Origin: a virus | IMG/VR virus record: IMGVR_UViG_3300009506_000114 | Span: 1 to 44,816 of that record | Length of the DNA: 44,816 bases | Strand: one strand, 5' to 3' | Part shown: positions 16,886 through 38,419 of the stretch, piece after piece | How the letters are laid out: the number at the start of each line of letters is the position of its first letter | Position numbering within the stretch: the first letter of the stretch is position 1 | Program-made: the position numbers and the translations under genes | The notes under the pieces: generated by a model | Told to the model about the DNA's origin: nothing | What the model saw: the letters and a program-made list of their open reading frames with translations, nothing else | Database searches by the model: none

Positions 16886-19800
16886 CTACCTCCGATTCTG
16901 GTCCCAGTCGGCAGCCACCCGGTCGACACTGGCGTCGATCCTGCTCTGGATGCTGTCGCGGTCCACGTTCTTGATCCTCGCCATGTACTTGTCGGCCAGC
17001 TTGTTCCTGGCCGCCATGAGTTCGTCCAGCAGGGCTCGGCGTTCCCGCCTGGTCATCACGCTCGGCGGCGCGTTCTCGATCTGGCGCATCCTCTTGCTGA
17101 TCTTGCCCAGCGTCTCGGCCATCCGGGCCGTGGACTCGTACAGGGCGATGTCCACGCCGCGGTCCCGGTAGAGTTGGAGGTACTTCTCCCGCGAGCCACC
17201 GCCCGACCGCAGGGCCCGCATCGTCTCCACGGCCTCCCGGCCCCGGTCGTAGATTTCGTAGAAGTCGTCCATCTGCCGGCTGTACTTCGTGGGCGTCGTG
17301 GCCGTCAGGCCCCGCAGGATCGGCGTCCAGTCGGGCATGACTCCGTACAGGCGCCGGGACTCTGGCTTCATCTGCCGCTTCTCCGGCTGGACCTGCATGA
17401 TGATGTTCGAGGCGATCTCGGTCCCCCACTGGCCCAGGCCACCGGTCGCGTTCCGGATGATGTAGTCGATCTTGAGCGGGGACCACCCCCCGCCGGGCCC
17501 CAGCGAGCCCAGCCACTTCGAGAATTCCGACGTGGAGGTCGTGTACTGCTCCCGGGGGATCACGTCCTCGAGCCACCCCTTGACGATGGGGGTGCCGCGG
17601 AAGGCGTCGAAGTTCTGCTTCGCGCCGACCAGGCCACCCACCGCGGGCCCCAGGAGTTGCGCCGGGTCCAACGGCACGATGTCCTTGGTGAACTGGTCGA
17701 CCCACCCCTGGACGGCCTTCGGGTCATCCTCCATCGCCCAGTCCAGGAACCGCTCGGGCAGGGAGCCGAAGATCAGGCCGACCTCGAAGGGCTTGGGCAG
17801 GCGGTGGATGGTTTTCCCGTCGTCGAAAGAGAAAAGCCAGAAATGGTTCTTCAACCAGGCCGGCTGCTCCTTGTACCACTCCTTGTCCTTATTCAGGGCC
17901 CAGAGCATCAGCGAAGGGACGGTGATCATGGCCACGCCCTTCGACCAGGCCGCGGACCGGCCGCCCTTGTCCACGAACAGGGTCCGGGCGAGCTTGTCGG
18001 CGCCCTGGAGGGCCGCGTTGAAGAACGGGATGATCCGGTTGATGACGTACCCGTACTCGCCAGACCGGCCGAAATCGGTGCTGGATTCCCGCGCCGCGAT
18101 CCCGGCCTGGAATTCCGCCTCCCGCCGGGAGTATCCCTCGGACATGAGATCGGCCCCGGTCCGCTCGAAGACGGCGAGACGGGTGCTGTTCTCCGTCAGG
18201 TTGGAGAGTTCCTGCAACAGGGTGATCGGGTGCGAGTGCATGACGTACCGGACGGGATTCCTCCCGGCCTTCTTGAGGTTCTGCCAGGGGGTCCTGGCAC
18301 CGCGGACCAGCTCCTCGTCGTGCTTCCGCAGGTTCTCCTGGTCCAGGGCCACGAGGTTCGCGTGGGCGGCCTTGGAATTGACGAACCGAAGCCACATTTC
18401 CCCGGGTTTGCCCTGGAGGCCCAGCAGGCCACGGCCCTTGATGGCCTTCCCGGTTTCCCCCTCGATGGCGTAGCCCAGGCCACGCAGGATCCGCACCGGA
18501 AGCAGGAGCGCGTCGGCGGGATCGGGGAACTCGACGCCGAGGATCTTGCGCGTGTGGACCAGGTGTTTGCTGATGATCCCGGCCGCCGCCAGGTCGCGGA
18601 GCTGGTTCCTGGACATGAATTCCGGGGTCAGCACGGCGCCGGCCCGCAGGAGCCGGGTCTGGGCCGTGAAGAATTTCATGAGCTGGTGCGACGGCCGGTG
18701 GTGCGCGGTCAGGAAGGTGTCCACGATCTCCGGCGTGAACTCCCAGGTTTCCAGTTCCCCGTCCCGCATGAAGGTCAGGGTCTTGCCCTTCTCCCCGGTG
18801 CCGGTCCGGTACATTTTCACCGCGGCGTCGATGGCCCGCTGACTGGCCGGGTCGTTGGGGTCAGCCGCCGACTCCAGTTCCTCTCGGAATCCTTGGAGCT
18901 GTTCTTCATCTGGGGTAGGCACTTTGCGGCCAAACCCCTCGAGAGCGTCTTCTCCATCGGAAGCGAGTCTCACAAAGTCGGCAGCCGACATCTTCGCCGC
19001 GTTGTAGGCGATCAGGAACTCGCGCCGATAGACGGTTTTGATCAGGCCTTCGATGGGGTCCATGCGGACCTGGCCCGGGATCAAGGTGTCCATTTCGTAG
19101 GCGAGTTGGTTCATCGGTGCGCCTTCCTTCTCCAGGACGAAAAGGGGCGCGTAAACGTCGTACTTGAGAACCATGTCTGCGTACTGCTCGTCGGAGATCA
19201 TCCCGCTCTCGAGCGCCCGCTGGAGGGTGGCGTTGGAGAATTTCGTGATGGCCGCCACCGCGTCCAGCCACCCGGGCTTGTCCTTGTACTCGTTGTAGAG
19301 GCGCATCTGGTCCGCGAACTCCTCGCGGGCCGCCTGCTCCTGCTCCCCGGCGTACTCGAACAGCGAGCCCTGGTTGTCGCCCGCCTTGGCGCCCTTCTGC
19401 CGGAAGAAGTCGTCCCCGTGCCGCTCGTACATGGCCTTGAGGCGGGCCGCCACGAGGAACCGGCCGAACACGCCGTTCTCGACGTCGTCCGCGATCCCGA
19501 ACTTCCGGATGATGACCTCCAGGCCATCGGAGAGGATGTTGCGCGGGTCCAGCCAGGACGGGACGGCCGTGGTCAGGATCGTCTGGGCGCTCTTGGTCCA
19601 GGACGCGAACCCCTGGAGCCACTTGTGCGGGTTTTCGATGTCTTTCAGCGTCTCGAAGGGATGGCCGGCCGCCTCCCAGGCCTTCTTCACGGCGACGTGC
19701 AACCAGGTGTTCTGGTCGAAGAACTTCTTGTAGACCTCGCGCAGGAGCCCCCAGCCGCGCCGCGCCCGCTGGGTCTGGACACCCTTCTCGGCCTCGCGCA

Positions 19801-22800
19801 ACCTCTGGACCTCGGCCCGCATCAGGGGGGTTTCGTTTCTCAGGACGTCCGACTCGAACATATCCCCCTGGTAGGGGTTCTCCTGGACCTGGGACCGGAA
19901 CTCCCTGGCCGCGACCTCGCTCATGGCCCTGGACACGGCCTGCTCGATGGCCCCGAAGTTGTCGAAGTAGGCCTCGACGCCAAAATAGGCGGGGGACATC
20001 CGGAAGAAGTTCCTGATCGACCGCAGGACGTCCATCAGCTTGTTGACCACCGCGGAGAAGGCGGTCGGGTTGGTCCGCTTGAGATCCTTCCAGAAGGCTT
20101 CCTTGGCCGCTACTTCCGCGAAGACATCGGACATGAACTCGCCCATGATCTGGTCTTCGGTGTAACCCAAGGCCAGGCGCTCGGCCTTGTAGACGTTGTA
20201 GCCTCCGGGGATCATGTGGCGGGAAGCCACCCTGATGATCTGGTTCCACAGGTCCGGGTGGTTCTTCTGGACGTGGTGGCCGACCTCGTGCATGGCGACC
20301 GGGAGCAGGGGGGCGGCCGGGTTCTCGATGTTGATGTAGGCCGTGCGCTGGGAGGGAGAATACCCGCCTCCCGCGACCCGGTCGTTGGCTTCCTGGTAGA
20401 CCGGCCGGAAGAAGACGGTCTTGACGCCAAAGCGCCGGAGGATGTCGCTGATCAGTTTCAGGTGCGGATCGTTCCCGGGCTCGACCTGCTGAACGTCCTT
20501 CACGAAATCCGACCACCGCTGCTTCATGTCGCGCCGGAAGGCCTGGAAGTTCGCCCGCTCGTCCCCCCGGTCGAAGACGTTGAACAACGTCTGCTCGCCT
20601 CCGAAGGCGAGGCGGTCCTGGGCGGCCCGCCATTCCTGCTTGAGCTTGATGATCTGCTGGTCGGTATGGTCGATTAGATCCTGGAGTTCTTTCGCCTTCC
20701 TGGTTTTCAGGGCCTCCAGTTCTCCCTTTCGCTTGGCCAGACGGGCCTCCAGGTCGGCCTTTTCTTTCTCGTCGGTACTGGTCTTAATCCGGTCTTCCAG
20801 ATCCCTGATTTCCGATTCCGCGACCTCGCTGGGATGGGCTTTCCGCCGCTGGAGTTCCTTCTTCCAGTCCTCGAGGGTTTTGAGCTGTTCCTCGAACCTG
20901 GCCTTGGAGCCCTTGGGGGCCGTGGCCCTAGCCAGGTTAAGGGATTCCATTCCCGTGAAGGAACCCATGTTCCCGCGGGATTCAACCACCGCAATAAAGG
21001 CCGAAGCCGAGGACAGGTTATCCTTGCGTCCGTTCTTTTCCAGGAAGTCGAACATTTCCCTCTCGTGAGAATCGGTGAGAGTCGGGAACCTCTCCCTGGC
21101 TTCCCCGATCCACTTGGCATAACGCAGCACCCGGTTGTATTCGTCGCTTCCCTCCCGGAGAGACTGGAGGACGGAAATAGCCTTCCCCTTGGGGTTCAAC
21201 CTGGACAGGTAGAGGATGGTCGGTGTCTGCTCCTTGTAGAGGCTCTTGGCCTTCTTCTTGACCAGGGTTTCCGGCATCCCGCCTTCACGGTTGGAGCGCA
21301 CGGTGGCCGCTCGGCTGAATATGTCGTTGACCGAAACACGGTCGTTCAATTCCTTGGATTCCTGGAGTGCTTCTTCTCTGGTTCCCTCGAAAATCTTGAC
21401 GTTGACATTCAGGACACCCATGCGCTTCGCGGCCTCGAGCGTGTGGTGGCCGTCCAGAACTTTCAGGAGCCCGTCCTTGGGGTCGCGCCAGGCCACGATG
21501 GGGTCCATTTTGTTGACGTCGAAGTCGTCCAGGATGGCCTGAACCTTTGCCTCGTTGGTCCCTGATTCCGGGTTGTCGATGTTGGTCCTGGTCTGCAAAG
21601 TGGCCGGTTCGATGTGGAGGTCCACCGTTGGGACAAGGATGATTCCCCTTGCCGACTTGCCCTCGATGACCTCGACGATCTTGGGCCCGACCCCTGCGGC
21701 CGGCTGGACTGCGGAAAGATCTTTGCCCTTCCAAATAATCCGATCGGGAGTAAACGCCTTTCCTATGGCCCCGCGCCTGCTGTCTGGCTCTAGCGGGGCG
21801 CGTACAAGTTCTTCTTTCATGGAGCCTGCCCGAGTGTCGCGCGGCCCGAACACGTTGACGGGTATCTTGGCGTCCGGGGCCATCTCCCGCAACACCAATG
21901 CCCGGCCGCGCCCCTCGTGGCCGGTGATTACGACCTTCCCGTCTTTATACCGGACCTGTAGGAAGGGGCTGGCCACGGGCTCCCCCGCCCGTATGCGGTT
22001 GGCCGTAGGCCCGTGAAGCGGGCCTTCTGGCCTCGGGGGGTTCAGGTCCAGGAACTCCTGCGGGGTCATAAAAACTGTGTAGCCCATGTAGTTGACATTG
22101 CCCTGGTCAGGAACGGCTCCGATACCGCGCTGCTGATCAAACCTGATCCCGCTGACCACAAAACGCCCTTCTATGTTTTCGGGCGATGGCGGGGCGGTGC
22201 CATCAGTCTCGGGGCCTACCGCCTCATCCTTTACCTCCGGCCTCATGTCGGTCCGCGCCTGCTGGGAAACGTCGTCGATCATTCGACTGTTCGGGCTGAC
22301 GCGCCACCGGGGGTTGCCGTCCTCGTCGGTGGCGATGGTCACGCTGCCGGCGTTGGTCCACTTGGAGCCGAATTGCTCCTCGGCCTGGGCCCGGAGGCGG
22401 TCGTTGGCCGCGGACAGAGATTCTGGTGTTCCTTCGTGGGACTCGACCAGGACACCCAGGCGGTTGCCGTCGAAATCATTGACGACCAGGGAGGCGGTGT
22501 AGGGATCCTCCGGCCTGCGGCCCCGCTTCTCGATGGCCGCCTGCTTGGCCTTCCGCTGGATCTTCTGAACGGGCTGCTCGATGGTGAACCCAGCCGCCTC
22601 GGCCTCGGCCTTGATCTCGGCCTTACGCTCCTTCTTGCGGGCGCGGTCGTAGGACTTCTGGTATTCCTCCTGCATGGCCTGACGTTCGGCCTCTGCGATC
22701 TGGGCGTCCCGCTTCTTGAAGCGGGCCAGATCCTCGTCGGTGAAGATCCCGACGTCTCGGGCCCGGTCTAGGATTTCTCTGGCTGTGGCGAACCCTCCGG

Positions 22801-24676
22801 CCTGCCGTATCCACCCCTGAACCTCACCTTCGGACATGGCGGCCAGGGCTTCGTTCTGCTCGTCCACCACGGCCTCCACCGGCTCGACCGTCTCGCCGTA
22901 CTTGTTCTCGTAGGCGTCCAGGGCACGGAAGTAGGCGTCCTCGGCCTTGCCGTCGTCCTGGTTGGCGATCCAGGCCCGCTCGAGATCCTGAACCTTGACC
23001 CGATCCGCCTCCATCTGGGCGACATCCTCGCGGGCTGCGGCATAGCCTTCCTCCCGCGCGGCGGCCTTGGCCTCGACCTCGGCCCGGGTCGGCTTCTTGA
23101 GGGGTTTGCCCGTGAACAGGCCCACTTCCTGCGGCGGGAACAGGTCCGGGGCCTCCATCCCCTCGGTGGCCTGCTCCAGGGACCTCTGGGCCCGGCGGTC
23201 CATGCGGGCCTGCTGCTTCGCCGCCCTGCGCTCGTCCCGGGCCGCCTGCTTGGCTTCGATCTCCTGCTGGCGCTGGGCCGCGGCCTCGGCCGCAGACGCC
23301 TCCGTGCGGGCCCCAGAGCGGAACAGGTAGTCCTCGGCCAGGTTGTAGGCATCCTCGGCCTTCTCCCATGCCGCCTGACTGTCGCCTTTCTGAGACAGCG
23401 TTTCGGCCTGCCGGGCGAGGGTGGCCACGGCGCCCGCCTGCTCGGGCGTCAGGCGCTCGGCCAGGTTGATGTCGACGCCGTATTCCTGACTCAAGGACGC
23501 ACTTACGCGGCCAAGGGCATAGGCGTCGTCGCCCACCAGCCGCTCGCGGGCGTCCTGCTTGGCGTGCCTACGGACCTCCTGCTCGGCCTTCCGCGCCCGC
23601 TTCTCGTCCCAGTAGGCCTTCTTCTGGCGCTGCTGGGCGGCCTCCCTGGCACCGGCCTGCGTTCCCGGCCCGAACTCGACCGGCCGGCCGCTGAGACTTT
23701 GCGCCTCTCCTGGGGCCTCCTGGGGCGCCTGAGAGGGCCTCTGGGTGTCCTCCTTGGAGGACGGAACCTCCTGGGGCATGACCAGGCCGGCCCCGGCGCC
23801 GACGAGGGAACCCACCAGCGTCTCGGTGCCGTACTTCTCTGGATCCCAGAAGTCCGACCAGGTGCCCCGGCCTGCGGCCACGTCCTGGATGACGCTCTGG
23901 AACCGCTCCTGGCCGCCCTCGGTGATGAAGGACATGGCGGCCCGGGCGATCCGGCCGGCGGGGGACCACAGGGGGGCGTTGGTGGCCATCAGCAGGGCCA
24001 TGTTCTGCCAGAACACCGGCTGGGATGCCCCCAGAGCCTCCTCGGCCGTCATCCCCTGCGACATCAGCTCCTCTTGCCGCTGGGCCTGCTCGATCCCGGC
24101 CTCCACGGCCGACATGGTGGTCAGGCCCAGAACCTTTCCCAGGACCCGACCGGCCAGCCCCAGTCTCACCGCCAGGGCCTCGGTGCCCAGGCCCGGGATG
24201 ATGAACCCCATCATGGACCCGACCCCGTTGGCCAGGTGGTCGAAGAACTTGGGGTTTTCGACGGCGACGTGTTCGTTGAGCCACTGTTCCCAGGAGATCC
24301 CCGTCTCCGCGAGCTGCTGACCCGCTTCGTCTGCCCCCAGGAAGTCCAGGACGCCGCCGGCCAGGATCATGCTCGAGGGGATCATCTGGGCTATCCCGGT
24401 GGCGATCCCCCTCGCACCGCGCTCGAAGTAGTTGGGCCGGTCCTCTGGCTTCTTGGCGAACTCGTCGGGGAACATGGCCATGCGGGCGTCGGGACCGCCG
24501 ATGATCAGCCGGCGGTTCATGACCGCCGCCGCGGCGTCCCGCTGGATCTGGAGCATGGTTTCGTTGGACAGGGTGGGCCCCAGGTCCGCCGGTCCGGTAG
24601 GCGTGGGCGCGGAGAGGCCCAGGTCGCGCAGGGCGTCCTGCTGGATCTGATCTGCCCTGAAAAGAGGCTCGGTCAC
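16886..24676 (-). CDS. Giant polyvalent internal-virion protein
   Basis: This encodes about 2,596 residues from GTG 24676 (GTGA overlap with the previous gene). N-terminal hydrophobic segments lie at about 88-125 and 150-305 (IATGIAQMIPSSMILAGGVL, GSLVGAGAGLVMP). A long charged coiled coil covers about 350-800. A ParB-like domain lies at about 840-970 (GHEGRGRAL), and a second at about 1020-1130 (LDGHHTLEAAKRMG). A metallopeptidase motif MHEVGHHV lies at about 1460, with EFMSDVFAE downstream as third ligand. A region at about 2020-2300 (FMSRNQLRDLAAAGI, then DDGKTIHRLPKPFEVGLIFG) looks like LPD38. The position after the T7-gp14/gp15-like genes suggests it is ejected with DNA. Confidence 0.85.
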   Translation of the reverse strand: MTEPLFRADQIQQDALRDLGLSAPTPTGPADLGPTLSNETMLQIQRDAAAAVMNRRLIIGGPDARMAMFPDEFAKKPEDRPNYFERGARGIATGIAQMIPSSMILAGGVLDFLGADEAGQQLAETGISWEQWLNEHVAVENPKFFDHLANGVGSMMGFIIPGLGTEALAVRLGLAGRVLGKVLGLTTMSAVEAGIEQAQRQEELMSQGMTAEEALGASQPVFWQNMALLMATNAPLWSPAGRIARAAMSFITEGGQERFQSVIQDVAAGRGTWSDFWDPEKYGTETLVGSLVGAGAGLVMPQEVPSSKEDTQRPSQAPQEAPGEAQSLSGRPVEFGPGTQAGAREAAQQRQKKAYWDEKRARKAEQEVRRHAKQDARERLVGDDAYALGRVSASLSQEYGVDINLAERLTPEQAGAVATLARQAETLSQKGDSQAAWEKAEDAYNLAEDYLFRSGARTEASAAEAAAQRQQEIEAKQAARDERRAAKQQARMDRRAQRSLEQATEGMEAPDLFPPQEVGLFTGKPLKKPTRAEVEAKAAAREEGYAAAREDVAQMEADRVKVQDLERAWIANQDDGKAEDAYFRALDAYENKYGETVEPVEAVVDEQNEALAAMSEGEVQGWIRQAGGFATAREILDRARDVGIFTDEDLARFKKRDAQIAEAERQAMQEEYQKSYDRARKKERKAEIKAEAEAAGFTIEQPVQKIQRKAKQAAIEKRGRRPEDPYTASLVVNDFDGNRLGVLVESHEGTPESLSAANDRLRAQAEEQFGSKWTNAGSVTIATDEDGNPRWRVSPNSRMIDDVSQQARTDMRPEVKDEAVGPETDGTAPPSPENIEGRFVVSGIRFDQQRGIGAVPDQGNVNYMGYTVFMTPQEFLDLNPPRPEGPLHGPTANRIRAGEPVASPFLQVRYKDGKVVITGHEGRGRALVLREMAPDAKIPVNVFGPRDTRAGSMKEELVRAPLEPDSRRGAIGKAFTPDRIIWKGKDLSAVQPAAGVGPKIVEVIEGKSARGIILVPTVDLHIEPATLQTRTNIDNPESGTNEAKVQAILDDFDVNKMDPIVAWRDPKDGLLKVLDGHHTLEAAKRMGVLNVNVKIFEGTREEALQESKELNDRVSVNDIFSRAATVRSNREGGMPETLVKKKAKSLYKEQTPTILYLSRLNPKGKAISVLQSLREGSDEYNRVLRYAKWIGEARERFPTLTDSHEREMFDFLEKNGRKDNLSSASAFIAVVESRGNMGSFTGMESLNLARATAPKGSKARFEEQLKTLEDWKKELQRRKAHPSEVAESEIRDLEDRIKTSTDEKEKADLEARLAKRKGELEALKTRKAKELQDLIDHTDQQIIKLKQEWRAAQDRLAFGGEQTLFNVFDRGDERANFQAFRRDMKQRWSDFVKDVQQVEPGNDPHLKLISDILRRFGVKTVFFRPVYQEANDRVAGGGYSPSQRTAYINIENPAAPLLPVAMHEVGHHVQKNHPDLWNQIIRVASRHMIPGGYNVYKAERLALGYTEDQIMGEFMSDVFAEVAAKEAFWKDLKRTNPTAFSAVVNKLMDVLRSIRNFFRMSPAYFGVEAYFDNFGAIEQAVSRAMSEVAAREFRSQVQENPYQGDMFESDVLRNETPLMRAEVQRLREAEKGVQTQRARRGWGLLREVYKKFFDQNTWLHVAVKKAWEAAGHPFETLKDIENPHKWLQGFASWTKSAQTILTTAVPSWLDPRNILSDGLEVIIRKFGIADDVENGVFGRFLVAARLKAMYERHGDDFFRQKGAKAGDNQGSLFEYAGEQEQAAREEFADQMRLYNEYKDKPGWLDAVAAITKFSNATLQRALESGMISDEQYADMVLKYDVYAPLFVLEKEGAPMNQLAYEMDTLIPGQVRMDPIEGLIKTVYRREFLIAYNAAKMSAADFVRLASDGEDALEGFGRKVPTPDEEQLQGFREELESAADPNDPASQRAIDAAVKMYRTGTGEKGKTLTFMRDGELETWEFTPEIVDTFLTAHHRPSHQLMKFFTAQTRLLRAGAVLTPEFMSRNQLRDLAAAGIISKHLVHTRKILGVEFPDPADALLLPVRILRGLGYAIEGETGKAIKGRGLLGLQGKPGEMWLRFVNSKAAHANLVALDQENLRKHDEELVRGARTPWQNLKKAGRNPVRYVMHSHPITLLQELSNLTENSTRLAVFERTGADLMSEGYSRREAEFQAGIAARESSTDFGRSGEYGYVINRIIPFFNAALQGADKLARTLFVDKGGRSAAWSKGVAMITVPSLMLWALNKDKEWYKEQPAWLKNHFWLFSFDDGKTIHRLPKPFEVGLIFGSLPERFLDWAMEDDPKAVQGWVDQFTKDIVPLDPAQLLGPAVGGLVGAKQNFDAFRGTPIVKGWLEDVIPREQYTTSTSEFSKWLGSLGPGGGWSPLKIDYIIRNATGGLGQWGTEIASNIIMQVQPEKRQMKPESRRLYGVMPDWTPILRGLTATTPTKYSRQMDDFYEIYDRGREAVETMRALRSGGGSREKYLQLYRDRGVDIALYESTARMAETLGKISKRMRQIENAPPSVMTRRERRALLDELMAARNKLADKYMARIKNVDRDSIQSRIDASVDRVAADWDQNRR

Positions 24677-26079
24677 TTCTGGGTCTTCCTGATGTCCCGG
24701 GCAGCGTTCGCCAGATCCGTCCTTGGCGCCCCGCCACCGCCAAGTTTCGGGGGAACCCACCCCAGTATTTTCACGAACTTGTCCCACTCCTCTTTGTCGT
24801 AATACGGGGCCCTGTTGGGGGCCGTGGATGTTTTGGTGGGGGCCGCTGGGGACGCCGACCCCTGCTTAATCGGCGCTGCCGATCCCCGGGCCCCCTGATT
24901 CAGTAGCTCCTGCTCGGCCGGCGTCGGACCCTCCAGGTTGAACCCGGCCACTGGGGCCCCGTACAGGGGAACCACCAATTCGCCGGTCTGGTTGTCCACG
25001 AGCCACCCGGTCTTGGACTCGGGATGGTAGTAGGGCATCAGTCGGGCCGGATCGGCACCGTTGTTGTAGGCCCGCTGGGCGGCCAGGATGAACTCCGGAG
25101 GCGCCTTGGCGATGGATACCGCGTAGGGGGAGGCATCCGACCCATCCTGCCACTTCCCATCGGGACCGACGTAGGCCTGGACCAACAGGCCCTTGATGGT
25201 CGGCAGGTCCATCCCTGCGAGGATCATCTTCTGGCCCATGTCCTCCAGAAGGTGCCTCATGGGCTCCTTCGATTCGGGGAAGATCGGCGCTCCCGGGGTC
25301 AGAACGTCGTCCTGACCCGTGAACAACTCCGACCGGATCCACGAGGACAAGTCCACGCTCATTTTGTTGAATTCCTTCTTCAACTCCTCCGGGCTCATGC
25401 CCTTGGCCTGGGCCTGGACGGTCAGGATCTTCCCCATCTTGTCCCACAGGTTGTTGAACATTTCCGTGGTCAGCTTCTTGTCCATGCCCGACTGCTTCTC
25501 GAACTCCGTCTGGTACTCGAGGAGGGCCAGGTTGGCGATGTTGGGGTCGAGCATCCCCATTTCGTCGACGGCCTTCCTCTTGACCCACTCCCAGGCGTCG
25601 TCCTGGGCCTTGCCCAGCCGGAGTTTCGTCTCGGCGGTGGTCTGGGTTTCCTCGTACTTCCGCTTCTGCTGGGGATCCCGCCATCCGGCCAGCGAACTCT
25701 GCCGACCGGGACTGGGCGGACCCTGCTTCCCCTCGTCCTGGACGGACACGGCGTTCTCCGCTCCCAGATGCAGCACGCTCTTGAAATGGGCTGTCGCGCT
25801 CCCGGCCGTGCGGACGTAGTCAGGGTAGGTCTTGTCCAGCCGCTCGGCCCGGCGCATGACCTCCACGGTCTGGGACGGATCCCAACTCGGGGAGTCGATG
25901 ATGGCTTCGATGCGGGCGAATTCGTCCTCGGCCGCGCCGGTCAACAGCCGACTCTCGGTGGCGATCTTCATGTTGTTCTCGAACAACTGCTGCTTCGCCT
26001 TGGCCTCGGCATCCCGCCGCGCCTTGTTGGCGGCCTTGCCGGCTTCCATCCCACCCAGAAGGGCTCCCATTGTATCCAT
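24673..26079 (-). CDS. Internal virion protein (T7 gp15-like position)
   Basis: This encodes 468 residues, alanine- and charge-rich and mainly helical (GKAANKARRDAEAKAKQQLF near the N-terminus), with a low-complexity Ala/Pro C-terminus. It lies between a glycine-rich protein and the giant polyvalent protein, the order of gp14-gp15-gp16 in T7-like ejection cores. GGAGAAGCCG precedes ATG 26079. Sequence alone does not establish homology to gp15. Confidence 0.72.
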   Translation of the reverse strand: MDTMGALLGGMEAGKAANKARRDAEAKAKQQLFENNMKIATESRLLTGAAEDEFARIEAIIDSPSWDPSQTVEVMRRAERLDKTYPDYVRTAGSATAHFKSVLHLGAENAVSVQDEGKQGPPSPGRQSSLAGWRDPQQKRKYEETQTTAETKLRLGKAQDDAWEWVKRKAVDEMGMLDPNIANLALLEYQTEFEKQSGMDKKLTTEMFNNLWDKMGKILTVQAQAKGMSPEELKKEFNKMSVDLSSWIRSELFTGQDDVLTPGAPIFPESKEPMRHLLEDMGQKMILAGMDLPTIKGLLVQAYVGPDGKWQDGSDASPYAVSIAKAPPEFILAAQRAYNNGADPARLMPYYHPESKTGWLVDNQTGELVVPLYGAPVAGFNLEGPTPAEQELLNQGARGSAAPIKQGSASPAAPTKTSTAPNRAPYYDKEEWDKFVKILGWVPPKLGGGGAPRTDLANAARDIRKTQK

Positions 26080-26088
26080 CGGCTTCTC

Positions 26089-26847
26089 CTACTGCACGGG
26101 GCCCTGCATCCCGGCGTCCCACAGGTAGTTCCCGGTGGACTTGTTCAGGATGTTGGTGTTCAGGTACGAGGTTTCGTCTGTCACGGCGTTCCCCAGCCCG
26201 GCGAACACCGAAGGCAGGAAGGTGTCCGGGGCCACGGCCGTCGAGCTGGTCCCGCCGCTGCTGGTCGTGACCACCTTGGACTCGGAGATCCGCTGGTTCC
26301 AGAGCTGGGTGATCGTCTGGAGGTAGGTTGCGATCCTGGCCCGGGCCTGCTCGCGGCGGGCCTGGATGACCTGCTCGGCGCTCATGGTCGCGCTGCCGGC
26401 CGCGGCGGCCGTGTCCCGGGCCTCTCCGCTGGTCAACTTCTGGCCCATGACGTCGGCGGCGTAGCTGTTCGCCGCACCCCGGCTCGCCCGGTTGGCGTAG
26501 TCCTGGTTCTTGGCCGTGGCGTAGGCGGAACTGATCGCCTCCTGCTGGGGTCCGAAGATGGACTCGTAAATCTGCTTCCGCTGGGCCTCCTCGTCGGCCG
26601 CTCCGGTGGGCTTGAGTTCCCCCTGGAGCCCGGCATAGGCCTGGTCCAGAAGGGACTGCTCCTGGTCAGTCCAGGGCCGCATCTGGGTTTCTCGGGTAGC
26701 CGTTCCGCTCTGCGAGCCCCACGTCTGCGAGGTCCGCGATGCCGAATTTCCGGAACTGAATCCGCTGGCCGCTCCCACGGCCGCGCCCACGGGACCGCCA
26801 GTGGCGAACCCGACCAGGCCACCCAGAATACCGCCGAAAAGGCCCAT
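26089..26847 (-). CDS. Gly-rich internal virion protein (T7 gp14-like)
   Basis: This encodes 252 residues. Residues 1-45 are a glycine/alanine-rich hydrophobic segment (LFGGILGGLVGFATGGPVGA), as in podovirus proteins that enter the host membrane with the DNA. The rest is helical with Gln and Ala repeats (KNQDYANRASRGAANSYAA). It belongs to the block internal protein, internal protein, giant protein. GGAG lies seven nt before the ATG. Confidence 0.75.
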   Translation of the reverse strand: MGLFGGILGGLVGFATGGPVGAAVGAASGFSSGNSASRTSQTWGSQSGTATRETQMRPWTDQEQSLLDQAYAGLQGELKPTGAADEEAQRKQIYESIFGPQQEAISSAYATAKNQDYANRASRGAANSYAADVMGQKLTSGEARDTAAAAGSATMSAEQVIQARREQARARIATYLQTITQLWNQRISESKVVTTSSGGTSSTAVAPDTFLPSVFAGLGNAVTDETSYLNTNILNKSTGNYLWDAGMQGPVQ

Positions 26848-26850
26848 CGT

Positions 26851-27366
26851 TTACTCCCTGGTCATCCCCATGAGGATCAGATCCTCCACGGGCTTTCCCT
26901 TGAGCTTCGTGCCGTCCCGCAGGACGCCTTCTTTCCTGAATCCGCACTCCCGGAGGATCTTCACCGTCCGGTTGCGGGTGCGAGGGATCAGCGACGTGAT
27001 CCGCCGCAGGTCCCGGCGCTCCATGACCCCCTGGAAGATCGGCAACAGGGCCTCCTTGGCCCACTCGTAGACCGGGTCCTCGTTCTTCTGGCCGTCCTTG
27101 CCGATGGGCGAGAAGAACCGGTAGGTGGGGATCAGGTCCACCGTCCCGAACTCTCCGTCGATGACGTCGGTAAAGATCACCCGCGCCACCGTCTCCTTCG
27201 TTTCCGTGTCCACGACCTCGATCATGGTGGCCGTCTCGCTCATGTTCCTGTACTGGAGGATCGCCAGGTCGACGTTCTCCGGGACCAGGTGGTGCTGGTC
27301 GAACAGGTGGAACAACTTCTCTGCCGTGACTTCATCCGGCGGCACCGCTTCCGGTTTCCAGATCAT
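26851..27366 (-). CDS. GNAT-like protein in the tail/core module
   Basis: This encodes 171 residues. A GNAT-like pattern is visible: VARVIFTDVIDGEFGTVDLI, then WAKEALLPIFQGVMERRDLR, then ITSLIPRTRNRTVKILRECG and FRKEGVLRDGTKLKG. The final part R-x-N/R-x-x-x-x-I-L-x-x-x-G-F is the acetyl-CoA site of GNAT enzymes. Podovirus genomes with T7-like tails often have such a gene next to the tail nozzle, where it may be a structural protein rather than an enzyme. It overlaps the nozzle gene by ATGA. Confidence 0.82.
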   Translation of the reverse strand: MIWKPEAVPPDEVTAEKLFHLFDQHHLVPENVDLAILQYRNMSETATMIEVVDTETKETVARVIFTDVIDGEFGTVDLIPTYRFFSPIGKDGQKNEDPVYEWAKEALLPIFQGVMERRDLRRITSLIPRTRNRTVKILRECGFRKEGVLRDGTKLKGKPVEDLILMGMTRE

Positions 27367-29033
27367 GACCTGGGACCTCCTTCACTGGCCTCCACTCGAT
27401 AGCCGACGACCTGGGCTCCCAGGTTGTTCGCCGCACCGACCCACTTGAACCTGATGATCTTGAAATCCCCGTCCAGATCGTACCGGACGATCTTACGCGC
27501 AAAGGTTCCCCACGCCGTCGAGCCCCAGGTGAAGGCCCCCCAGGCTCCGGAGGCCGCCCCGACGCTCCTGACGATCCGCTCGATTGGCTCCCAGGTGTCC
27601 ACGAAATCCTTCTGATACCAGAGCGTCACCCCGTCGCCGTCGTCACCATACAGCACTTCCAGCCACAGGGCGCGGGTGGAATCGGACAGTTCCCCGAAAT
27701 TGATCCAGTCGGTGATGTAGTAGAAATCCGTGCCCTGGATCACGCCGGAATCCAGTTGAACCACACCGTCCTCGAGCGACCCGGCGAGGGGGCGGGACAG
27801 GTAGCTCTCCGTCGCGGGGGTGGTCAGGACATCCTGGATGTTGGTGGTATCACCGTCCCAGATGGACCACTGGCCCGTGTCGTAGTAGTAGGCGAAGGCC
27901 TTGTCGTTGTTCGTGGACGTGGGGCTGGGGACGAACCAGACCACCCGCCGCCTGTCCTTCTCGTGCCAGCACCGGATCAGGCCGAGCTGGTCGGGAGCCA
28001 CGTCCAGCACGTCGTCCTGGATGTTCTCGCAGAGGGAACCGACTTCGATGTCCCCGTACTGGTTCACGGCCGCGAGATTCCGCGGGCCCTCCAGGCTCCA
28101 GAAGTACAGGTCGTTGCCGACCTTGGCCCAGGCCCGGTCGTTCACGCAGCCCACCGGCAGGTCCGCCTGCTGGAACCACTCGAACCCCGTGGGATCGCCC
28201 GGATCGCCGCCGTAGATCAGGGTGCGGCGCTCCTTGAAGATCACCGTGTAGGTATACATATCGGCAATCGAAACCAGCCGATCCCCGTCCCCCGGCCGGA
28301 TCTCGATGTACCCGCCGTCCACCGTGGCGTCCGGGGTGGCCCCGTAGCTCATGTCCTTGAGCATGAAGTTGTACTGGACGTTGACCTCGCTGTAGCCCAG
28401 GAGATTCGGGTTGTCGGGGAACCCGAGGGCGTACATTCGCTCGTTCCGGCCGCGGCCGATCACGCGCATCACGGTCGGCCAGTTGTCCGTCCAGGAAGAC
28501 GGATAGCCCTTCACCTGGTCGCCTGCCGCGGGGGCCGTCTCGATCTGGCCGGCGGGCAGGGTGATGATGTCTCCCGTGGCCGAAGTCTGGCCCAGAAGGA
28601 TCAGCGGGGCGCCATTGGAACGCGGCAGGTAGATGACCGAAGGATACTCCGTGCTGACCTCGTCGTAGTACCTGCTGTTCTCCCGGCCGTAGAAATCCTG
28701 GGCCACGAGGGAGTAACCGGAAGCGTGGGTCGGCGTCTGCCACGTCCAGGTCCCGGGTTCCGGCACACGGTAGATGGTCTGCCCGGCGATGATGTAGAGC
28801 CACCCGCGAGACTGCTCCGGCTGGTTCAGCATCATGACGGCCTCGACGCTGTCCTCCCCGGCAGGAACTCCCAGGATGGTGTAGCCCTTCCGCTGCTTGA
28901 TCGCGTGGCGCGGGAGCAGATCGGCGTTCCGCAGATCCGGGGACATGAAATCCGGCAGGCTGACCTCGCTAAACTGCGTGACCAGGCCACCGAAGATCCT
29001 CAGAACCGGTTGCTGTGGCCTTTCTCCGACCAT
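27363..29033 (-). CDS. Tail nozzle/hub protein (T7 gp12-like)
   Basis: This encodes 556 residues, beta-rich. The N-terminus (VTQFSEVSLPDFMSPDLRNA followed by LLPRHAIKQRKGY) has the typical opening of podovirus tail stabilisation or tail-tubular B proteins, where LxxRxGY is conserved. Repeated strands (VLRIFGGL, YIIAGQTIYRVPEPG, WFVPSPTS) suggest a propeller-like body. It would form the distal tail. GGTGAGGC precedes the ATG. Confidence 0.75.
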   Translation of the reverse strand: MVGERPQQPVLRIFGGLVTQFSEVSLPDFMSPDLRNADLLPRHAIKQRKGYTILGVPAGEDSVEAVMMLNQPEQSRGWLYIIAGQTIYRVPEPGTWTWQTPTHASGYSLVAQDFYGRENSRYYDEVSTEYPSVIYLPRSNGAPLILLGQTSATGDIITLPAGQIETAPAAGDQVKGYPSSWTDNWPTVMRVIGRGRNERMYALGFPDNPNLLGYSEVNVQYNFMLKDMSYGATPDATVDGGYIEIRPGDGDRLVSIADMYTYTVIFKERRTLIYGGDPGDPTGFEWFQQADLPVGCVNDRAWAKVGNDLYFWSLEGPRNLAAVNQYGDIEVGSLCENIQDDVLDVAPDQLGLIRCWHEKDRRRVVWFVPSPTSTNNDKAFAYYYDTGQWSIWDGDTTNIQDVLTTPATESYLSRPLAGSLEDGVVQLDSGVIQGTDFYYITDWINFGELSDSTRALWLEVLYGDDGDGVTLWYQKDFVDTWEPIERIVRSVGAASGAWGAFTWGSTAWGTFARKIVRYDLDGDFKIIRFKWVGAANNLGAQVVGYRVEASEGGPRS

Positions 29034-29040
29034 GCCTCAC

Positions 29041-29805
29041 CTACTCGTTGTAGTTCGGGCCCGGAACATGATTGCGGTTCATGTCCTGCGAACTGCTCAT
29101 GCTCGCCCCCCGCCTCCGGAGATCCTTCCGGCCGATGGCGATGTCGGCCTCGAAATCCCGGTACATCATGTACTGCTTGTAGTACCCGGTGGCGAGCTTG
29201 TGGTGGGCGAACCACAGCTCGCGCGGAAGGCCGATGTCGTCCTCGTCCGTCAACAGGGGGCCAGCCTGCTTCCAGTATTGCCCGTAGAGGGTCCCCTCGG
29301 TATCCACGAAGTCCTCGTCGGGGATCGGCATGAGCCCGACGTACCCGTCCAGGTAGGTGTAGTGGTAGGGCTCCCCGAAATTGTGGGACTGCTCGGACAA
29401 CTGGAAGGCCGATCCGATCCCACCCACACCGGAGCCCGGCGTAAAGGACCGAATATCGGGGTACAGCCTGATCAGGTCGCGGAACTCCATGAACTCGATG
29501 GACCGGTCGATCCTGTTCATGCTGATGGGCCCAGCGGCGTCCACCCAGTCCCCGGGTGCCTCGTACCACATTTGGCCCTCGACCAGGTCGAACTCGAACT
29601 GGCCTCGACGCCAGTGCCACATGACGTGGTAGAAAACCTCGTCGCGGGCGTCGATCACGGCCTCCTTGGCCTTGTCGAGCCGCTTGGTCGGGGTCCCGAT
29701 GGCCGTGTTCACCGAGACGAAGTTCGATTCCCCGATCTCGCTGCACAGGCGGTTCACGGCCTGGAGGAAGGTCCGCTGGGTTCCGTCGACGCCTACGATT
29801 GTCAT
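29041..29805 (-). CDS. Tail tubular protein A (gp11-like adaptor)
   Basis: This encodes 254 residues. The N-terminus (FLQAVNRLCSEIGE, then KRLDKAKEAVIDARDEVFYH and VMWHWRR) matches T7 gp11-like tail-tube A proteins that start with a helix bundle sensing the portal. The centre carries DLIRLYPDIRSF and the C-terminus is basic (GRKDLRRRGASMSSSQD). It connects portal and nozzle. GGAGCGAGCC precedes the ATG. Confidence 0.85.
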   Translation of the reverse strand: MTIVGVDGTQRTFLQAVNRLCSEIGESNFVSVNTAIGTPTKRLDKAKEAVIDARDEVFYHVMWHWRRGQFEFDLVEGQMWYEAPGDWVDAAGPISMNRIDRSIEFMEFRDLIRLYPDIRSFTPGSGVGGIGSAFQLSEQSHNFGEPYHYTYLDGYVGLMPIPDEDFVDTEGTLYGQYWKQAGPLLTDEDDIGLPRELWFAHHKLATGYYKQYMMYRDFEADIAIGRKDLRRRGASMSSSQDMNRNHVPGPNYNE

Positions 29806-34846: not shown

Positions 34847-35116
34847 TTACGCCCCGTCAGGCGTGATTCTCGAGTGGTTCTCGATCCACTGGATCGTTCT
34901 CACCAGCCTGTATCTATCTCCATCGTCGAACGCTCGTTTTTCCGCCCAGTTCGGGTCATTACCAGGACGCTCGGGCCTGGATAGACCCACCAGTTCGTCA
35001 TTGAGGAATTCCAGCAGGGGATCCAAATACCCCGCCTGCCGCGCCGCCGCCGTTTTCTCCTTGCGCCATCTGACCTTCCGCTCCCGGACCTCGTCCGGCT
35101 TGACCTGCTCCGGCAT
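34847..35116 (-). CDS. Small protein overlapping the portal gene end by 119 bp
   Basis: This encodes 89 residues. ATG 35116 has GGAGG eight nt upstream and lies inside the portal reading frame, which ends at 34998, so 119 bp encode both products in different frames. The protein (REKVRWRKEKTAAARQ-type basic N-terminus, then LLEFLNDELVGLSRPERPG) has good composition over its non-overlapping half. The overlapped portal C-terminus is Gly/Ala/Gln-rich low-complexity sequence, so it tolerates overprinting. Function unknown. Confidence 0.65.
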   Translation of the reverse strand: MPEQVKPDEVRERKVRWRKEKTAAARQAGYLDPLLEFLNDELVGLSRPERPGNDPNWAEKRAFDDGDRYRLVRTIQWIENHSRITPDGA

Positions 35117-37010
35117 TAGCAGCCTCCATCCTTCGTTGCTCGGCCATCATCTTCTTGAACTGCTCGATCTCTTGCAGGTAGTTCTCCTTCGACTTGATGA
35201 TCTCCCCGGCCTCGCCAAGAATCTCGATCATCACCCGGCGCCACAGAATATGGTCGTTCACCGGGGTCGGGAGTCCTTGGGCCACCCGCTGGTCGTTGAG
35301 CTGGATGGCCATGAGCAGTTTTTCGATGCGGTCCGATTTCTCCGCGACGTGGACGGACCCTCGGGCCCGCGCTATCCCCCCGCGCATTATCTGTTCGGGT
35401 GGAACGGTGACGTTAAGCACCTTGTCGTCCTGGGTGATCTGGAAGACCTGATCCGTGGTCAGGTTCATGCCGTTCATTTCCAGGCACATATTCAGGAACG
35501 GGGTCAGCAGCTCGTCCTCGAGGTCTTCGACCCGGGCTCCGTGCTTCGTGGCGATGACGCCCGTGTTGCGGGCCGTGAGGGTGGCCGACTCGTCGTTGTT
35601 CCCCTGCGTGTTGATCGCCCCGGTGATCCTCTCGACCCGGGCGATGGCGTCACTCACCGCCTGCCACCCCACCTGGAGGCCCGTGAAGTTCTTCGGGATG
35701 GCTGTGATCGTGCCCTTCTTGTTGACGTAATGCCGCACCCCCGGCCCGCTGGGAGCCATGACCTGGTCCCGGGCGAGGTCTTCTTCCACGACCTCGAGTT
35801 CGGGCTGGATCACCACGTTGACCGCGTCGATAAGCTGGTTGTGGACGGCGTTGGCCGTGTCCTGCTCGTCCAGGGCCTTCTCCAGAAGGCCTATCCCGTA
35901 GACGGCGCCCTCCAGGACGTGGAACCGCGCGTTGTTGACCAGGGACTTCCCACTGTAGAGGGGGCTGGGTTCGGCACGGATCACGGTATTGTCGTTCGCC
36001 ACGACCACGATGTAGTTCTGGTAGATCCTGCCGGCGTCCATGCCCTTCTTGATCTCGAAGGTCCCGTACTGGGCCTTGAGCAGCACCTTCTCCTTGCCGT
36101 GGGGAAGTTGCATATGCAGGGCCATCTTCATGAGGTCTTCACCGACGTTGTCCTCGGATTTGTCCTCGCTGGTGATGTCCGCGATCTTGTTAAGGTTCTC
36201 GTACATCCGGTAGCCCGTCTCGTCGACCTCGCCCATCTTCTTGAGGTAGGCGTGGGTGCGCCACGAGCGCATGATCCGGATGGCCTGGTCCCGGTCGTTC
36301 GGGTGCTGTTCCTCGACGTAGTTGAAGATGCTCCCGATCTGGAGTTTCGGGCCCTGGTAGACGACGTCGAAGTCCTTCCCGGGCGGGCGCGGGGGGTCCC
36401 TGAACGTTGGCGGGGGCGGGGCCGGCATCCCGGCGGCCTCGGCCTGGGCCACAATGTCCGCGTACTCGCGGGCGATCTGGAGACGTTCCTGGTGGAACCG
36501 GCGGGAATCCTCGATCCACTGTTCGGTGGCCTTGTTGAAGGCCAGGGGGTTCACCAGGGCCCGCTGGACCGCCCACTGGCCAGCCCAAGGGCAGTTCCCC
36601 AGGATCCCCAGCGAGCGAATCGCCATCTTGAACGTCGGGATGAAGTTGTTCCTGGTCATCTGGTACAGGAGCAGGTAGCGCATATTCTCGGCCCAGATGT
36701 CATCGTCCTCGAAGAACCCCTCCCGTTGGGGAGCGATGTCCAGCCAATCCATCCCCGGCATGGACGATGCGGCAAGCTGCGGAACCACCGTCTCGATGGC
36801 GTCGAACAGCAGGGACAGGTAGCGGTGCGAGCGATTGGCCTGGTTGGCGAATTCCGCCCAACTCTTGTCGAACTTGCAGAGGTAGGCCATCAGGCACCGG
36901 ATCCACTCCGATTCCAGGGACGCCCGTTCGTCCTTCATGGTCCGCCAGCCGTCGACCACCTGGTCCTTCATTTCCTGGAGGGTGGTGGGGTTGGTGATCA
37001 CAATGCCCAT
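34998..37010 (-). CDS. Podovirus-type portal protein
   Basis: This encodes 670 residues from ATG 37010, sharing bases with the TerL stop (TGATG), with GGAGGA six nt upstream. The N-terminus (TTLQEMKDQVVDGWRTMKDE) and the central SLVNNARFHVLEGAVYGIGL with LLEKALDEQDTANAVHNQ are typical of large portals that join a short tail. The C-terminal 40 residues are Gly/Ala-rich and overlap the next gene. It forms the ring that DNA passes through. Adjacent TerL and scaffold genes support this. Confidence 0.85.
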   Translation of the reverse strand: MGIVITNPTTLQEMKDQVVDGWRTMKDERASLESEWIRCLMAYLCKFDKSWAEFANQANRSHRYLSLLFDAIETVVPQLAASSMPGMDWLDIAPQREGFFEDDDIWAENMRYLLLYQMTRNNFIPTFKMAIRSLGILGNCPWAGQWAVQRALVNPLAFNKATEQWIEDSRRFHQERLQIAREYADIVAQAEAAGMPAPPPPTFRDPPRPPGKDFDVVYQGPKLQIGSIFNYVEEQHPNDRDQAIRIMRSWRTHAYLKKMGEVDETGYRMYENLNKIADITSEDKSEDNVGEDLMKMALHMQLPHGKEKVLLKAQYGTFEIKKGMDAGRIYQNYIVVVANDNTVIRAEPSPLYSGKSLVNNARFHVLEGAVYGIGLLEKALDEQDTANAVHNQLIDAVNVVIQPELEVVEEDLARDQVMAPSGPGVRHYVNKKGTITAIPKNFTGLQVGWQAVSDAIARVERITGAINTQGNNDESATLTARNTGVIATKHGARVEDLEDELLTPFLNMCLEMNGMNLTTDQVFQITQDDKVLNVTVPPEQIMRGGIARARGSVHVAEKSDRIEKLLMAIQLNDQRVAQGLPTPVNDHILWRRVMIEILGEAGEIIKSKENYLQEIEQFKKMMAEQRRMEAANAGAGQAGRGPGAEGQMAQGENGGGAAGGVFGSPAGIPQ

Positions 37011-38419
37011 CAGAATCCTCCTCCGGGAACGTCTCTGGCCCGGACATATTTTTCCCGCCCGCCCGTCATCTGGTGGTGCCGCCTGCGAAGCTGCTCCCTG
37101 GTCGGGATGCGGTGCTGGAGCGCCCCGCAAAATTGGTCGTAGTGATGATCCTCGGCGTGGGAGTCCACGTCCTCGATGTTGTTGTCGTCCACCGGCAGGC
37201 TCGGGAACGTCCGGATGAAATGCTCACAGTGGCTCATGACCTTGAACCTGGCATTGCCGTTGGTCACGGCGAGGAACTGGTGGACCGCGAGTTTCCGGAG
37301 TTTCCGGCGGTCCTTCCCGTGCTTCTTCCACGGCCGCCAGCCCAGTTGGCTCCCGCCCAGTTCCTCCACGATCAGGCCGCTCTGGCCCTTCTCCTCCCAG
37401 CACTGGCTGTCCAGGTAGCCGATGGGGACCCAGATTTCGTGCATCCTCTCGAAGCTGTCGATCTTATCGCGCACGACACTGGGGGCCTCGCGGGTGCCGA
37501 CGTTGGGCTTCCCGCTCCAGCCGTAGATTTCGTTGCCCATGATCAGGTCGCCCTCGTTGCTGGGGAAGTACCATCCCCCCGCGTAAGGCTCGCCGTATCC
37601 CCAGTCGAGGGATCTCCAGATGGGCCGGTCGTGCGGCATGGGGGCCGGCTGGATGACGTGGACCTTGGGGTTCCACTCCGGGAAGGCGGCGCCGGCCACG
37701 ATGTTCCAGTCACCCATGCGAAGGGCCTCGGCCATGTTCGGATCGTCCAGCTCGTAGATCCGGTCCTCGTAGTGCGGATCGTTCTCCATGAGGATCCGGT
37801 TGTCCTCGAGCTTCGCCGGGATGTAGACGCGCCAGTATTTCCTGCCGGTCGTCGTCTCCACCAGGAATCCCTCTCCGGGATAGTTGGGGTCTACGAACCT
37901 TGCCTTCACCCAATGATGTCCCGGCCCGCCCGGGTTGGTCGCGGCCCGGACCCTACAGGGATGGCCGTGTGGGGACCGGCAGCGGGAGAACAGGTAGGTG
38001 TAGGGATGGGGCGAGGACCACTGGGTCAACTCGTCCCAGCCGATCCAGGTGTACTGCTTGCTCTGGTGCTTGAGGACGTCGTCCTTGCGCTCGATGGCCC
38101 GGAACTTCAAGGTCGCACCGGAGGGGAAGTCCCACATCCGGCGGCTCTCCCGCCAGCACTCCACGCCGTAGACCGGGCCGAAGATTTCCTTCGACCGCTC
38201 GATGATCTCGTCCAGGTCGCCCAGGTAGCGGCGGAAGTAGACGCCCTTCCAGCCCTTGCCACGAGGGATGTCCTTGGCGAAGTCGCCCATCAGGCCGTCC
38301 GACTTGCCGCCACCCACCGCTCCTCCGTACAGGACCTCGAAGGCCGGGCACTGGAGGAACAACGACTGGGGCCCCGGCTGGGGCTGCCACGCGATGTTCA
38401 TGGGTAGGGACTTGGCCAC
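37010..38419 (-). CDS. terL: Terminase large subunit
   Basis: This encodes 469 residues from GTG 38419 (GGAGACGG upstream). Walker A is LYGGAVGGGKS (about 30-40), Walker B is YTWIGWDE (about 123-130), and motif III is ATNPGGPGHHW (about 160-170). The nuclease domain starts with WRSLDWGYGEPYAGG (about 265-280), carrying the first catalytic Asp of the RNase H fold, with GYLDSQCW (about 350) downstream. It drives DNA into the prohead and cuts it. No neighbouring small-subunit gene is certain; the gene at 42262 is a candidate. Confidence 0.93.
   Translation of the reverse strand: MAKSLPMNIAWQPQPGPQSLFLQCPAFEVLYGGAVGGGKSDGLMGDFAKDIPRGKGWKGVYFRRYLGDLDEIIERSKEIFGPVYGVECWRESRRMWDFPSGATLKFRAIERKDDVLKHQSKQYTWIGWDELTQWSSPHPYTYLFSRCRSPHGHPCRVRAATNPGGPGHHWVKARFVDPNYPGEGFLVETTTGRKYWRVYIPAKLEDNRILMENDPHYEDRIYELDDPNMAEALRMGDWNIVAGAAFPEWNPKVHVIQPAPMPHDRPIWRSLDWGYGEPYAGGWYFPSNEGDLIMGNEIYGWSGKPNVGTREAPSVVRDKIDSFERMHEIWVPIGYLDSQCWEEKGQSGLIVEELGGSQLGWRPWKKHGKDRRKLRKLAVHQFLAVTNGNARFKVMSHCEHFIRTFPSLPVDDNNIEDVDSHAEDHHYDQFCGALQHRIPTREQLRRRHHQMTGGREKYVRARDVPGGGF

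Follow-up and report, generated by a model that had tools for sequence, protein, structure and literature searches.

Polyvalent proteins of phages were described by Iyer et al. in 2017 (PMC5512222), who hypothesized that effectors carried on them are injected into the host. In that work, polyvalent proteins with an LPD38 domain are very large, encoded in a late-gene context, and combine LPD38 with a zincin-like motif and a ParB/Srx domain, and DdrB of phage P1 is cleaved before packaging. A report on the Burkholderia podovirus JC1 (PMC9144972) adds that DarB-like proteins are virion-borne, and that the 4,515-aa gp69 of this phage was found by mass spectrometry in CsCl-purified virions, with 51 unique peptides and a score second to that of the capsid protein. 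JC1 gp69 carries LPD38 at residues 4195-4401 and provides the strongest evidence that LPD38 proteins are virion components, direct for this relative only. Among open-licence PMC papers, no use of LPD38 for phage proteins was found beyond Iyer 2017 and JC1. Two further papers describe T7 gp16 as a protein that is expelled and reaches the cytoplasm (PMC11784390), and show that giant polypeptides can be expelled, as with the ~3,500-residue N4 RNA polymerase (PMC12633501).

Here we describe a polyvalent protein encoded in a virus record of 44,816 bases, analysed as a whole (hereafter the window). The gene, for a putative ejection-type polyvalent protein, lies on the minus strand from 24676 to 16886 and has 2,596 codons from a GTG; the longest open frame (minus strand, 16886-24787) has 2,633 codons from its first GTG. 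Of the two starts we prefer 24676, where the GTG runs into the stop of the preceding gene, 24673-26079, in the string GTGA. The open frame is real, in agreement with the original prediction of a single protein of ~2,600 residues at 16886-24676, and the motif strings quoted in that prediction are all present. Residues are numbered in the 2,633-aa translation (P0001), from which 37 is subtracted for the 2,596-aa form. The late genes of the window are on the minus strand and encode terminase, portal, capsid, spike, adaptor, virion-type proteins, the polyvalent protein and an endolysin; the protein joins at least two unrelated domains in one chain and has a late-gene context. Polyvalent proteins are, as had been noted at the outset, already known (Iyer et al. 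2017, PMC5512222).

The conserved part of the protein, common to many phages, is its C-terminal ~950 residues. An LPD38-like region had been anticipated here, and the LPD38 (PF18857) core was located at P0001 2302-2466 (17390-17884, minus strand) with a Pfam score of 127.2 bits against a cut-off of 27 (E = 1.1e-36). The domain itself is certain, and assignment as an LPD38 polyvalent protein is well supported. The surrounding module, a putative ejection/packaging module (P0001 1680-2633; 16889-19750, minus strand), is 28% identical over 975 blastp columns (9e-96) to the corresponding part of the closest relative, the 2,494-aa protein of IMGVR_UViG_3300037504_000445 (L022). When the whole protein was searched with tblastn, 54 of 50,697 phage records matched, and in the 40 records listed the matching part was the C-terminal third, with identities of 22-28%. 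When IMG/VR was scanned with an alignment of four C-terminal sequences, at least 458 relatives were obtained among at least 600 matched stretches.

Eighty-four loci were surveyed, comprising 80 kept from the IMG/VR scan and four others, and 72 of them hold a complete ORF. Sixty-one of these ORFs are shorter than 1,450 aa and 11 are longer, two of the long loci (L048 and L073) looking like the same sequence. The common form has ~1,140-1,430 aa, mostly without a peptidase motif or a detected ParB domain, and the window protein is this short form plus some 1,300 extra residues. HExxH or HExxxH motifs occur in none of the 61 short complete ORFs and in 7 of the 11 longer ones. A Pfam scan of ten long loci (all but L073) found LPD38 in every one, accompanied by an N-terminal SLT transglycosylase in L024 and L031, NlpC/P60 in L048, glycosyl hydrolase 108 (GH108) in L005 and a zeta toxin in L047; the other five showed no enzyme above the Pfam cut-off, the metallopeptidase match in L022 (0.0018) falling below it. 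Among 13 phage proteins or loci that were fetched, eight were scanned with Pfam and seven of the eight carry LPD38, with methylase domains in X14, D274, BA3 and Salisaeta icosahedral phage 1 (SSIP-1), one below cut-off in V1205, and a helicase in D274; zincin-type motifs were present in 6 of 12 phage proteins examined. Variable cargo on a constant module is the pattern given for polyvalent proteins in general by Iyer et al. 2017 (PMC5512222). The LPD38 protein with the zeta-toxin domain (L047:6617-11356; 9.6e-16) is itself a candidate injected toxin kinase.

Upstream of the gene, on the minus strand, lie a portal/head-tail connector (34998-37130; PF12236, 6.4e-8; phrog_332), an SU10-type head-tail adaptor (29041-29805; PF24175, 1.3e-5, just below the cut-off), a 556-aa virion-type protein (27363-29033; PHROG virion structural/amidase) and a 171-aa gene (26851-27366; phmmer 8.8e-14 to L022 1103-1630), the latter two syntenic with L022. 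They are followed by a 252-aa gene in the gp14 position (26089-26847), with weak N-terminal glycine-zipper similarity below the Pfam cut-off (0.0096), and a 468-aa gene in the gp15 position (24673-26079), assigned by position, with no Pfam or PHROG match and a 560-aa counterpart in the L022 slot. The same order of upstream genes is found in L022, where sequence similarity links two of the neighbouring genes to those of the window. In pelagiphage HTVC034P the order is connector, capsid assembly, capsid, tail tubular A, tail tubular B, acetyltransferase, internal virion protein B (gp14-like), a 580-aa protein, the LPD38 protein and tail fibre; this pelagiphage order matches that of T7, with the LPD38 protein in the gp16 slot. 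The window gene likewise follows gp14- and gp15-like genes, recognized as such by order and size only. The original prediction that the protein stands where T7 gp16 stands therefore holds for the family by gene order (HTVC034P versus T7), while the term T7-like is not supported in the strict sense: the window carries DnaB-like helicase, RecE, RecT and RusA genes, and no homology to T7 gp16 was detected in the module. In HTVC010P (L010, 7094-10717), several small CDS are annotated where HTVC034P has one 1,229-aa LPD38 protein, and the gene may be split there by a frameshift or by annotation.

By sequence, seven gp16 proteins compared with the LPD38-protein profile gave an hhalign probability of 0.1%, and homology to T7 gp16 outside the SLT domain was accordingly rejected. 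The gp16 profile found nothing beyond the SLT domains in L024 and L031 (1e-15), and no SLT was found in the window protein at E <= 1 with Pfam. An AlphaFold model of residues 1436-2633 (pLDDT 70.5, pTM 0.65) returned nothing from the PDB at E <= 0.001 with Foldseek, and 82 predicted viral proteins at the same threshold, many of the 50 listed being named polyvalent or LPD38; PDB rows naming pyrophosphatase and lyases had TM scores near 0.1 and were set aside. With VIA-align, the model aligned to chain 9jyy_I of the mature T7 core, which we infer from chain length and numbering to be gp16, over 203 residues (P0001 1688-2144, model 253-709; rmsd 5.5) at Z 5.2, a value in the middling range of the tool and within reach of unrelated helical proteins. 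This was the longest alignment among the 50 rows listed; the rows above it (dynein and others) cover ~100 helical residues each and were taken as common helices. Similarity of the modelled fold to the T7 core is only suggestive. The window protein resembles T7 gp16 in gene-order place (via the pelagiphages), in the size of its short relatives and in the SLT domains of L024 and L031, but differs in that its module has no detectable sequence homology, it has no SLT match and its likeness in fold is only suggestive; we call it an analogue of gp16 by position and not a homologue.

The N-terminal part of the protein begins with a moderately hydrophobic region (P0001 111-337; 23777-24457, minus strand) common to L022 (blastp 28% over 256 columns, 3.6e-17). 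The best 19-residue Kyte-Doolittle window reaches 1.49 and none reaches 1.6, so that the hydrophobic segments originally proposed are present in moderate form, and not in a strongly hydrophobic one. In an N-terminal profile search L022 was the sole relative, and a second look gave weak matches, the best to L042 at 0.02. Near the end of this region a motif, EGGQE[RM][FY]Q, occurs at P0001 residue 290 (about 23920-23900) and at L022 residue 260. A looser pattern was also found in L003 and L020, at a similar place near the N terminus, which makes 4 of 99 proteins altogether; the ParB region of L019 gave one further match, and 0.44 proteins are expected in shuffles. Further along the chain, an A/E/K/R/Q-rich, coiled-coil-like stretch (P0001 346-745; 22553-23752, minus strand) and a second such linker (P0001 1291-1430; 20498-20917, minus strand) contain 57% and 52% of these residues respectively, against 31-46% in the rest of P0001. 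This composition fits the long coiled coils that had been proposed.

Between these stretches lie two regions that had both been called ParB-like, and they fared differently. The first, a rare domain here named for its HEGRxR motif (P0001 879-1035; 21683-22153, minus strand; GHEGRGR at 956, window 21902-21922), has as relatives only three ORFs among 72,556 plasmid records, single-domain proteins of 182-193 aa on alphaproteobacterial megaplasmids (Bosea ANAM02, Bosea RAC05 and Rhizobium). The match to the Bosea ANAM02 ORF is 37% by tblastn (2e-18), and invariant residues of the four-member alignment include GAVPD and HEGRxR. With the Bosea protein as query, one phage record was found at E 0.09, and with the window region as query one at E 2; scans of viral and genome collections, which reach close relatives only, gave none. 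The region has no Pfam match, no PDB match and no ParB among its PHROG results, and hhalign against the second region gave a probability of 0.06%. A hit to glycosyltransferase PF12000 (E 0.0039; 17.4 bits against a cut-off of 25; one of four members) was taken as chance. In a predicted model of residues 860-1310 the HEGRxR region is mostly below pLDDT 50, and it may have a ParB-like fold. We accordingly set aside the proposed double ParB arrangement as unsupported: there is no match between the two regions, the first has no ParB match in Pfam, PDB or PHROGs, and what remains is one ParB domain and a rare domain for which no relation to ParB could be detected. GC3 is 0.73 in the HEGRxR region and 0.78 in the ParB region, against 0.81-0.93 elsewhere in the gene, which fits later insertion of both, amino-acid content being a further influence on GC3.

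The second region (P0001 1050-1290; 20918-21640, minus strand; LDGHHT at 1111, window 21440-21457) comprises a ParB/Srx-superfamily domain with a helical extension, and here the ParB reading stood. It matches PHROG ParB at 1.7e-5. The PDB hits of a four-member profile of the region are to Noc and ParB, with E-values from 4.9e-7 to 1.6e-3. In the 860-1310 model the region is mostly at pLDDT 75-92, and Foldseek gave 26 matches at E <= 0.001, every one of them to ParB, Noc, KorB or sulfiredoxin. On profiles and predicted fold, the region belongs to the ParB/Srx superfamily. In Pfam itself the region gets no score, and it gave no match at E <= 1 to a DdrB-ParB model. The GERR/GHxR motif reads GHHT, with Thr1116 where SSIP-1, L019, L020 and Noc have Arg, and the Asn of the next ParB motif is kept (N1148); we take both positions to touch nucleotide in ParB. 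The substitution weakens the case for a normal nucleotide site, not for the ParB/Srx fold.

The ParB region also matches SSIP-1 gp43 (30.5%, 2e-19; 31% identity when aligned), in which Pfam ParB_N scores above cut-off, and two giant viral proteins, L019 and L020. In each of these three longer viral relatives the ParB domain is accompanied by methylase or helicase domains, which points to DNA protection. SSIP-1 gp43 (L007:2526-9485; 2,319 aa), annotated as a structural protein, joins a methylase to ParB and is, in a phage that we take to be tailless, a polyvalent protein outside the tailed phages; it shares with the window protein the ParB/Srx domain and helical extension, but differs in having a methylase domain and no LPD38 that could be found. 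The polyvalent proteins at L019:6437-20623 and L020:7217-20539 are 4,728 aa and at least 4,441 aa long; beside an HExxH motif they have ParB, helicase, RadC or three ADP-ribosyltransferase domains. Relatives of the region further occur in Persicobacter sp. JZB09 on four replicons of one strain (CP012854, CP012856, CP012858 and CP012861; L105). One of these measures 632 kb; the other three, at 39-49 kb, may be phage-like elements.

Between the second linker and the C-terminal module lies a predicted zincin-like metallopeptidase (P0001 1431-1600; 19988-20497, minus strand). The MHEVGHHV string with a downstream Glu, read originally as a peptidase signature, is present as HEVGHH at 1500 (H1500-E1501-H1504) and Glu1550 in GEFMSD, and the motif aligns with the HExxH of relatives. 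HExxH alone arose in 3.2% of 2,000 shuffles of the protein, and the HExxH plus Glu pattern, chosen after seeing the sequence, in 0.25% of 2,000. In the model of 1436-2633, the consecutive helices 1492-1509 and 1544-1559 hold HEVGHH and Glu1550; the strand region is below pLDDT 50 and the beta part is not modelled. The region matches the motif region of L022 weakly (phmmer iE 0.029), no phage relative was found with the segment used alone, and no solved structure matched in a PDB sequence search. Given the motif and the frequency of zincin motifs at the same place in the family, a zincin-type peptidase is the probable identity of this segment.

Set against the described systems, the window protein resembles the LPD38 polyvalent proteins of Iyer et al. 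(PMC5512222) in LPD38, zincin-like motif, ParB/Srx domain, late-gene context and very large size, but its HEGRxR region matches no Pfam family and its ParB domain gets no score in Pfam and lacks the conserved Arg. With JC1 gp69 and the DarB-like protein of Bcep22 (PMC9144972) it shares a C-terminal LPD38 and the place of last large virion-module gene before the lysis genes, whereas the LT-like, methylase and helicase domains of the 4,515-aa gp69 were not found in it. L022 shares its N-terminal region, weak HExxH region, C-terminal module and upstream gene order, but no ParB or HEGRxR region was detected there, and conservation therefore does not anchor the roles of these two domains.

We consider it likely that the window protein is an internal virion (ejection) protein in which a fixed C-terminal LPD38 module is combined with exchangeable middle cargo. 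The ~950-residue module would be the fixed part, probably docking the protein on the internal core or portal, and the middle ~1,300 residues, including the HEGRxR domain, would be the cargo. On infection the protein would probably leave by way of the portal and short tail, ahead of the DNA or along with it, accompanied by the products of 26089-26847 and 24673-26079, which are gp14- and gp15-like by position, and would carry its middle domains into envelope or cytoplasm. There, the zincin domain would probably cut the chain to free cargo or act on a host protein, and the ParB/Srx domain would probably bind nucleotide and/or incoming DNA during the first minutes. The sequence features, the late-gene position and the variable cargo on a shared module are shown; ejection, processing of the chain and any effect within the host are what we infer, and the cargo could be inactive. 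Replacement of the ParB Arg by Thr1116, together with the fact that most relatives manage without these domains (zincin motif in 0 of 61 short complete ORFs), would also suit a protein that builds core and envelope channel like T7 gp16, its middle domains being structural filler or degenerate relics. We hold this to be unlikely, since the three zincin ligand residues and ParB N1148 are all kept and long relatives carry unrelated kinds of enzyme, those of L024, L031 and L048 being expected to act on peptidoglycan.

Less probable still, and in our view very improbable, is a late cytoplasmic maturation factor whose peptidase trims virion proteins, the protein or its peptidase part being left out of the virion. 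The position among late genes and the cleavage of P1 DdrB before packaging (PMC5512222) are compatible with such a role, but JC1 gp69, which shares the C-terminal domain, is among the best-detected proteins of purified virions (PMC9144972), and most LPD38 relatives have no peptidase motif. Within the ejection explanation, and compatible with it, the ParB and HEGRxR regions might be antirestriction or anti-exclusion effectors that coat or nick entering DNA, as in the DarB/DdrB systems. The methylase and helicase domains of all three longer viral ParB-region relatives and the virion-borne nature of DarB-like proteins (PMC9144972) speak for this, but the window protein has no methylase or helicase by Pfam and its HEGRxR region matches no identifiable family, and this assignment is doubtful, if well short of negligible. 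A broader proposal, which we advance tentatively and give somewhat more weight, is that the LPD38 module serves phages generally as a delivery chassis into which successive cargoes are spliced. It would be a gp16 analogue and perhaps, as hinted by the 203 residues aligned with the T7 core, its distant homologue. On this proposal, this phage has recently loaded it with an altered-site ParB-type domain and a rare HEGRxR domain as cargo for the host cytoplasm.

What is fresh here is the comparison of short and long forms, which isolates the cargo, and the rare HEGRxR domain, a small target that occurs alone and could be expressed alone. The LPD38 module is present in many phages, most of which have it annotated only as a hypothetical protein. 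Should it prove to be a common ejection chassis with exchangeable cargo, the effectors that phages inject could be listed directly by comparing long and short forms, and the module itself would be testable as a natural protein-delivery part. If true, this would also give the polyvalent-protein hypothesis a definite place in the virion, that of gp16.
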